NCBI GenBank assembly: GCA_030625085.1 | Contig: DAOURK010000005.1 | Coordinates: 1-64,000, forward strand | From: Pseudomonadota bacterium | Lineage (GTDB): Bacteria > SZUA-182 > DTGQ01 | Direction: 5' to 3' | Length of the DNA stretch: 64,000 nucleotides | Shown: in pieces, positions 7,741-51,179 of the stretch | Layout: every line of letters begins with the position of its first letter | How positions within the stretch are numbered: position 1 is the first letter of the stretch | Notes under the pieces: model-generated | What the model was told of the DNA's origin: nothing | The model's input: only the letters and a program-made list of their open reading frames with translations | Database searches by the model: none | Program-made: the position numbers and the translations under genes

Positions 7741-7820
7741 TGTCATTTCGAGAAGTTTAAGCGACGAGAAATCTTATTAAATCAAACTGTTAAAATTTCT
7801 CACTCCCGCTCGAAATGAAA
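7741..7820. repeat. GTCATTTCGA-type imperfect palindromic repeat
   Basis: tgtcatttcgagaagtttaagcgacgagaaatctt ... aaaatttctcactcccgctcgaaatga; same family at 10724, 16029 and 16310. Confidence 0.75.
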
Positions 7821-10756: not shown

Positions 10757-10787
10757 CAAATACAAGAATAAGGACAAATATAGTATC

Positions 10788-10942
10788 TCAGATATTAAAT
10801 TTCATGCACTAATTTTTTATGTAGCGCAGGGCTTTAGCCCTGCCAATAAACATCCTTTTAACAGGAGACTAAGCAGGGCTAAAGCCCTACGCTACTATTT
10901 TATGAATATCGATTGTAAAATTATTTATCTAAAAATCTATAG
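10788..10942. repeat. MITE-like palindromic element, GTAGCGCAGGGCTTTAGCCCTGC core with CTATAG-type end
   Basis: Core arms gtagcgcagggctttagccctgc / gcagggctaaagccctacgctac (10821..10895); outer cagatattaaatttcat and aaaaatctatag shared with 13809..13938. Confidence 0.8.
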
Positions 10943-13808: not shown

Positions 13809-13938
13809 CTATAGATTTTCAGATATTAAATTTCATACTGTAGCGCAGGGCTTTAGCCCTGTAGTTTGGCAGGGCTAAAGCCCTACGCTACTTTTATCTA
13901 AATATCGATTATGAAATTATTTTTATGAAAATCTATAG
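13809..13938. repeat. MITE-like palindromic element with about 28-bp imperfect terminal inverted repeats
   Basis: ctatagattttcagatattaaatttcat ... atgaaattatttttatgaaaatctatag (12 perfect terminal bp) flanking the tagcgcagggctttagccctg / cagggctaaagccctacgcta core. Confidence 0.85.
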
Positions 13939-15777: not shown

Positions 15778-15853
15778 GTAGTGCAGGGCTTTTAGCCCTG
15801 CTGAATAAAATCAGTTTTATGGGTGATCCTTGCAGGGATAAACCCGGCGCTAC
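15778..15853. repeat. Degenerate copy of the GTAGCGCAGGGCTTTAGCCCTGC palindrome
   Basis: gtagtgcagggcttttagccctgct ... tgcagggataaacccggcgctac. Confidence 0.7.
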
Positions 15854-34059: not shown

Positions 34060-34161
34060 TTATAGAAATTTTCAAAAAAAATAATTTTACAATCCATATT
34101 TAGGTAATAGGTGCGCAGGGGTTTAGCCTTGAATTTTAGCAGGGCTAAAGCCCTGCGCTAC
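34060..34161. repeat. Reverse-orientation, partly degenerate copy of the CTATAG / GTAGCGCAGGG element
   Basis: tatagaaattttcaaaaaaaataattttacaatccatatt ... gtgcgcaggggtttagcctt ... agcagggctaaagccctgcgctac. Confidence 0.7.
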
Positions 34162-40814: not shown

Positions 40815-40870
40815 TTCTATAATTTATAGGATTTCAGATATTACTTTTGATGCACTCATTTTTCTATAGC
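40815..40870. repeat. Solo end fragment of the CTATAG MITE-like family
   Basis: ttctataatttataggatttcagatattacttttgatgcactcatttttctatag, matching the left end at 10788 and 13809; no core. Confidence 0.5.
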
Positions 40871-45128: not shown

Positions 45129-45192
45129 CAAGATATTTTCATCATAGAAAAAAAAAGTCAATTCTTTTTTTTTCTATGATGAAAATATCTTG
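45129..45192. promoter_or_regulatory. Perfect 28-bp inverted repeat hairpin (8-nt loop)
   Basis: caagatattttcatcatagaaaaaaaaa-gtcaattc-tttttttttctatgatgaaaatatcttg. Confidence 0.85.
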
Positions 45193-51036: not shown

Positions 51037-51179
51037 CCAAGTATTAATTCCTTGTTCATTATCGATATAGTTTCTCAGAAAAATAATTCCAGAATTGACA
51101 TACATGCAACAAAAGCGTATAAAAATGAGTACCTGAAAATCAATAGCTGATGGTTCTTAGAACAAGAGGTGAATGTATT

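Follow-up and report, generated by a model that had tools for sequence, protein, structure and literature searches.

What kind of mobile sequence is the 130-bp repeat at positions 13809-13938 of the 64,000-nucleotide stretch analysed here (the window), and what carried its copies through the genome? The window is part of a draft metagenome-assembled genome (MAG) of 4.94 Mb in 247 contigs, 95.6% complete, in which it forms contig C106. A first-pass annotation had described the repeat as either a dispersed MITE or a REP-like family. Both descriptions turn out to apply: the family combines IS630-type terminal inverted repeats, TA duplication, a high copy number and the absence of any ORF with a core made of a REP pair. 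The reading favoured here, with a probability of about 85%, is that of a non-autonomous MITE of the IS630 family (Tc1/mariner-type) whose interior is a GTAG-tagged inverted REP pair, probably acquired once.

Anatomy of the element and its copies

The repeat is present as first described and does carry terminal inverted repeats, with arms of 29 nt that are 83% complementary. Comparison of about 37 copies sets its exact borders at 13810-13937 (128 bp, TATAG...CTATA), and the outer C and G at 13809 and 13938 are flanking sequence outside the repeat. Alignment of the copies divides the element into three parts, a GC-rich core of 52 nt preceded by an arm of 30 nt and followed by one of 46 nt. The core consists of a 23-nt palindrome, GTAGCGCAGGGCTTTAGCCCTGC, and an inverted partner with 6 nt between them. 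The element strand is predicted to fold into a single long hairpin, with a folding energy of -61.7 kcal/mol against a mean of -23 for shuffled sequences (z = -10). The parts of this element and the other copies in the window are as follows.

13810-13937, plus strand: best-preserved composite element, 30-nt arm, 52-nt REP pair and 46-nt arm (sequence and copy comparison)
13810-13811, no strand: left TA, presumed to be one copy of the duplicated target site (sequence; analogy with the KS41 IS and L077)
13810-13839, plus strand: short arm; 24 of 26 nt equal the left end of the Methylobacter KS41 IS630
13840-13862, plus strand: REP 1 (GTAGCGCAGGGCTTTAGCCCTGT)
13863-13868, no strand: 6-nt spacer of the REP pair, whose orientation flips among copies
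13869-13891, minus strand: REP 2, inverted (GTAGCGTAGGGCTTTAGCCCTGC)
13892-13937, minus strand: long arm; the family consensus arm agrees in 23 of 26 nt with the right end of the KS41 IS
13936-13937, no strand: right TA, presumed to be the other copy of the duplicated target site (sequence; analogy with the KS41 IS and L077)
10779-10941, plus strand: second composite copy, with type B arms and a REP pair at 10821-10895 that has a 29-nt spacer
15778-15853, plus strand: GTAG REP pair, diverged and lacking IS630-type arms
34061-34161, minus strand: composite copy comprising a single arm (34061-34109) and the REP pair (34110-34161) but lacking the other arm
40825 to about 40865, plus strand: solo type B arm
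51066-51145, plus strand: 80-bp copy that has the two arms but lacks the REP core

The copies previously listed in the window are all genuine, and their limits need small corrections. The copy given as 10788-10942 had its left end placed 9 bases short, the reverse copy given as 34060-34161 starts one base later, and the solo end given as 40815-40870 shrinks to the arm above. The entry at 15778-15853, described as core only, is indeed a core pair lacking arms, while the armed but core-less copy at 51066-51145 had been missed. Other repeats also occur in the window. One dispersed family, TGTCATTTCGA...GAGAAATCTT, is found at 7741, 10722, 16026 and 16309, and a perfect inverted repeat of 29 bp around a 6-nt loop (CAAGATATTTTCATCATAG...) lies at 45129-45192 and is unrelated to the IS630-REP composite family.

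The initial estimate of at least five copies or fragments in the window falls far below the size of the family. With up to three mismatches allowed, GCAGGGCTTTAGCCCTGC has 12 matches in the window against 0.01 expected. The genome-wide search that the first-pass annotation had proposed returned many further copies, the end pattern (up to three mismatches) matching 278 times in the 4.94-Mb genome against 7 times for a reversed control. In BLAST against the same genome, 40 of 315 candidates were scored as copies at E <= 2.4e-28. The family numbers well over a hundred copies in this genome, where counts derive from searches and a 1.5-Mb sample. No Rfam family matches the element. Copies are mostly 104-163 bp long and share a median identity of 83% (maximum 96%). 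Because copies differ by about 17%, most of the spread looks old, with no fresh burst. The family is also strongly extragenic: in a 735-kb sample with a coding density of 0.76, ORFs contain 1 of the 56 ends and none of the 51 cores.

Arms of an IS630-type transposon

The arms are related to the ends of a complete insertion sequence found elsewhere. The phylum is sparsely sampled, and the phylum-level search spanned nine genomes. In a genome from the same family as the window genome (G002, JAUWIR01), IS630 ends of this type are located on contig ends, one of them lying behind the 3′ terminus of a DDE_3 transposase gene. This transposase led to Methylobacter sp. KS41, which carries two identical 1433-bp IS copies bounded exactly by TATAG...CTATA and encoding an intact 429-aa IS630 transposase (DDE_3, NF033545). 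The family arms agree with the KS41 IS ends at 22-24 of 26 nt, compared with an average of 7.4 for random 26-mers from the window. The short arm is closest to the left end of the KS41 IS and the long arm to its right end, as expected of an internal-deletion derivative. A similar IS copy, partly decayed, is found in M. psychrophilus Z-0021. The transposase-bearing relatives with both ends belong to another class (Methylococcales).

In the 95.6%-complete MAG itself, no transposase with matching ends was found, nor any match to a KS41-like transposase. The DDE_3 genes of this genome were considered as the autonomous partner and ruled out, as their ends are unrelated. An autonomous partner in the same genome is not strictly required for an IS630-type MITE, and the MAG is incomplete. 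Movement in trans, as originally suggested, is inferred: IS630 elements with matching ends exist in the same-family genome and in Methylobacter, although the MAG yielded no such transposase.

Insertion duplicates a TA, as observed for the KS41 IS and for one element of the window genome. One KS41 IS copy interrupts a GGDEF-domain gene (L135 1176-3518), and the reading frame is restored when the gene is rejoined with one TA but not with zero or two. The element of the window genome (L077 2665-2898; G000:C117:12164-12397) has the same arms around a different passenger in place of the REP pair. Its flanks are multi-copy sequence, and four empty paralogs (L224, L256, L192 and L015) contain a single TA. 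The L077 passenger is a repeat of the GTCATTTCGA...GACTTTTTACGA family. TA duplication is known for IS630 and Tc1/mariner elements (ISY100, PMC2170065).

The only clean case of empty sites is L077, with its different passenger; none was identified for copies that carry the REP pair. One candidate (L072 2641-2760) was left uncounted, since its right flank is unmatched and the flanking repeat stops at the junction. Restoration of ORFs by removal of elements from this genome was not used either, the matches being short or the resulting fusions implausible. An approximately 80-bp repeat, TAACCCGGACAAGCCGGAACC...GAACTAAGTGCCTA, often adjoins the elements, with examples at L072 2560-2640, L198 8888-8992, L221 3046-3126 and L263 6915-7040.

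In the favoured mechanism, the TATAG arms would serve as binding sites for an IS630-family transposase acting in trans, which would excise the whole unit at its TA borders and paste it into another TA, thereby duplicating that TA. The same enzyme would presumably have acted on the REP-bearing copies. The matching transposase may since have been lost, or may lie in a part of the genome outside the assembly.

A GTAG REP pair joined to the arms

The core is a separate repeat. The 41 REP pairs collected from the window genome (G000) are inverted, and most begin with GTAG. Free GTAG inverted pairs without arms are found in this genome as well, 64-72 bp long and in unrelated flanks (L186, L190, L202 and L210), and core pairs without TATAG ends are present in G005 (same class) and G046. 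Comparison of the copies upholds the earlier remark that the core varies less than its loop, here the spacer.

The element thus joins two unrelated repeat families, of which the palindromic one inside is normally independent, and the combination has spread as a single unit. Exact arm-GTAG junctions occur 53 times in the window genome and 0 times in 385 other genomes, and the arms measure exactly 30 and 46 nt in 22 of 30 pair-core copies. Given these shared junctions, a single founding fusion is most likely, with the product then multiplied as a unit. Core-less elements of 104-105 bp with the same end type are known from G004 (same order, other family) and from the window genome. The founding event was probably the insertion of a REP pair into a MITE, an order of events that is inferred, since none of the core-less elements found shares the inner arm sequence.

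Alternatively, the REP pair could itself be the mobile unit, moved by a RAYT-type HUH transposase, with the arms serving as a preferred target or as hitchhiking flank. This scheme is modelled on GTAG-15 dimers inside TATAG palindromes of Anabaena (PMC3733652). It draws on the GTAG at both outer ends of an inverted pair, as in REPINs, on the existence of free pairs, and on two RAYT-like genes in the window genome, both just below the NCBIfam cut-off. However, the identical arm junctions across copies point to one fusion rather than repeated insertion, the arms share their ends with an IS630 that looks active, and in four genomes (G000, G002, G005 and G046) the surroundings of the Y1_Tnp genes, out to about 1.5 kb, contain no core. 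Mobility of the REP pair as the main cause of the spread is thus very unlikely. Of the transposase types initially put forward, IS630 fits the ends, whereas a link between the core and a REP-associated (RAYT) transposase was not found. The core is termed REPIN-like only, because no RAYT gene flanked by the same REP was found. A RAYT-like transposase at L035 871-1863 (G000:C43) has a DnaA-like C-terminal helix-turn-helix.

Between constant arms, the interior takes several forms: a REP pair whose spacer is about 29 or 6 nt long, one palindrome alone (104 bp), other cargo (L077), or none (L074). Under the IS630 MITE reading, the REP interior would have been altered inside the arms after the fusion. 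This diversity, together with the free REP pairs in the same genome, could also indicate two engines, an IS630 transposase that moves the unit and a RAYT that separately moves or excises the REP pair, so that interiors change. Yet L074 resembles a deletion that took flanking arm bases too, not a clean excision, truncated copies gave no clear excess of breakage at REP borders, and replication slippage can turn a pair into a single palindrome. A separate RAYT engine is accordingly judged quite unlikely. A related version, in which the IS630 transposase inserts the unit at TA while either RAYT or template switching at the hairpin rewrites, inverts or removes the REP interior, is likewise considered unlikely. 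If true, a two-engine element would make the MITE a vehicle with exchangeable palindromic cargo.

The core itself varies in two further ways. Read relative to the arms, 19 copies have ATTTTG as the 6-nt spacer and 11 have CAAAAT (L001-L030). These orientations do not cluster on the arm tree, itself weak, which requires 6 changes compared with 7.0 after shuffling. The flips suggest repeated inversion of the loop. In the 41 pairs, the same mutation appears in both REPs of a pair 12 times, against 4.2 +/- 1.8 expected, hinting at template-switch correction inside the palindrome.

The paired mutations, along with the strong fold and the extragenic placement, could instead mean that copies are retained because they work as RNA or DNA structures, such as terminators, mRNA stabilisers or gyrase/IHF sites, with dispersal being secondary. 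Many copies are truncated or decayed, however, and selection against gene disruption already yields an extragenic bias; maintenance for such a function is highly improbable. Terminator prediction does not call the element a terminator.

Comparison with known systems

REP pairs are usually thought to be spread by RAYT enzymes. A REP pair widely spread as the passenger of unrelated DDE transposon ends would represent another route to high REP number, and might account for genomes that are rich in REPs yet have no linked RAYT. Since both parent repeats are found apart, the fusion is datable and testable.

IS630 MITEs and GTAG REP dimers were each already known separately. ISY100 provides the comparison for the IS630/Tc1-mariner family, whose insertion sequences and MITEs share with the present element the terminal inverted repeats, TA target, TA duplication and ORF-less short form (PMC2170065). 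The arms here match both ends of a real IS630. In contrast to these MITEs, the interior is a foreign REP pair, and no autonomous partner was found in the genome. Like REPINs and BIMEs with GTAG REPs, the core has two inverted GTAG palindromes and a spacer, is extragenic and multicopy, and is also found free-standing (PMC3116915, PMC3733652). Unlike in those systems, most pairs examined here are inside IS630-type arms with a 6-nt spacer, and no adjacent RAYT gene was found.

Nesting of mobile sequences has been described in other bacteria. In Thiomargarita nelsonii, a TATAG-ended IS630-like MITE is likewise combined with another mobile unit, but the partner there is a group I intron instead of a REP pair (PMC4853749). 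In Anabaena variabilis, a one-sentence mention describes GTAG-15 dimers inside TATAGGA...TCCTATA palindromes, which were not found without REPs; the text does not name IS630 (PMC3733652). That arrangement is similar in having a GTAG REP dimer within a TATAG-ended palindrome, although its ends differ and it carries no IS630 link, whereas here both parents are found apart. By analogy, the Anabaena nesting suggests that such a fusion may have arisen more than once. Beyond this precedent, the present family offers parents that each occur apart, arms identified as IS630-type, and evidence on TA duplication.
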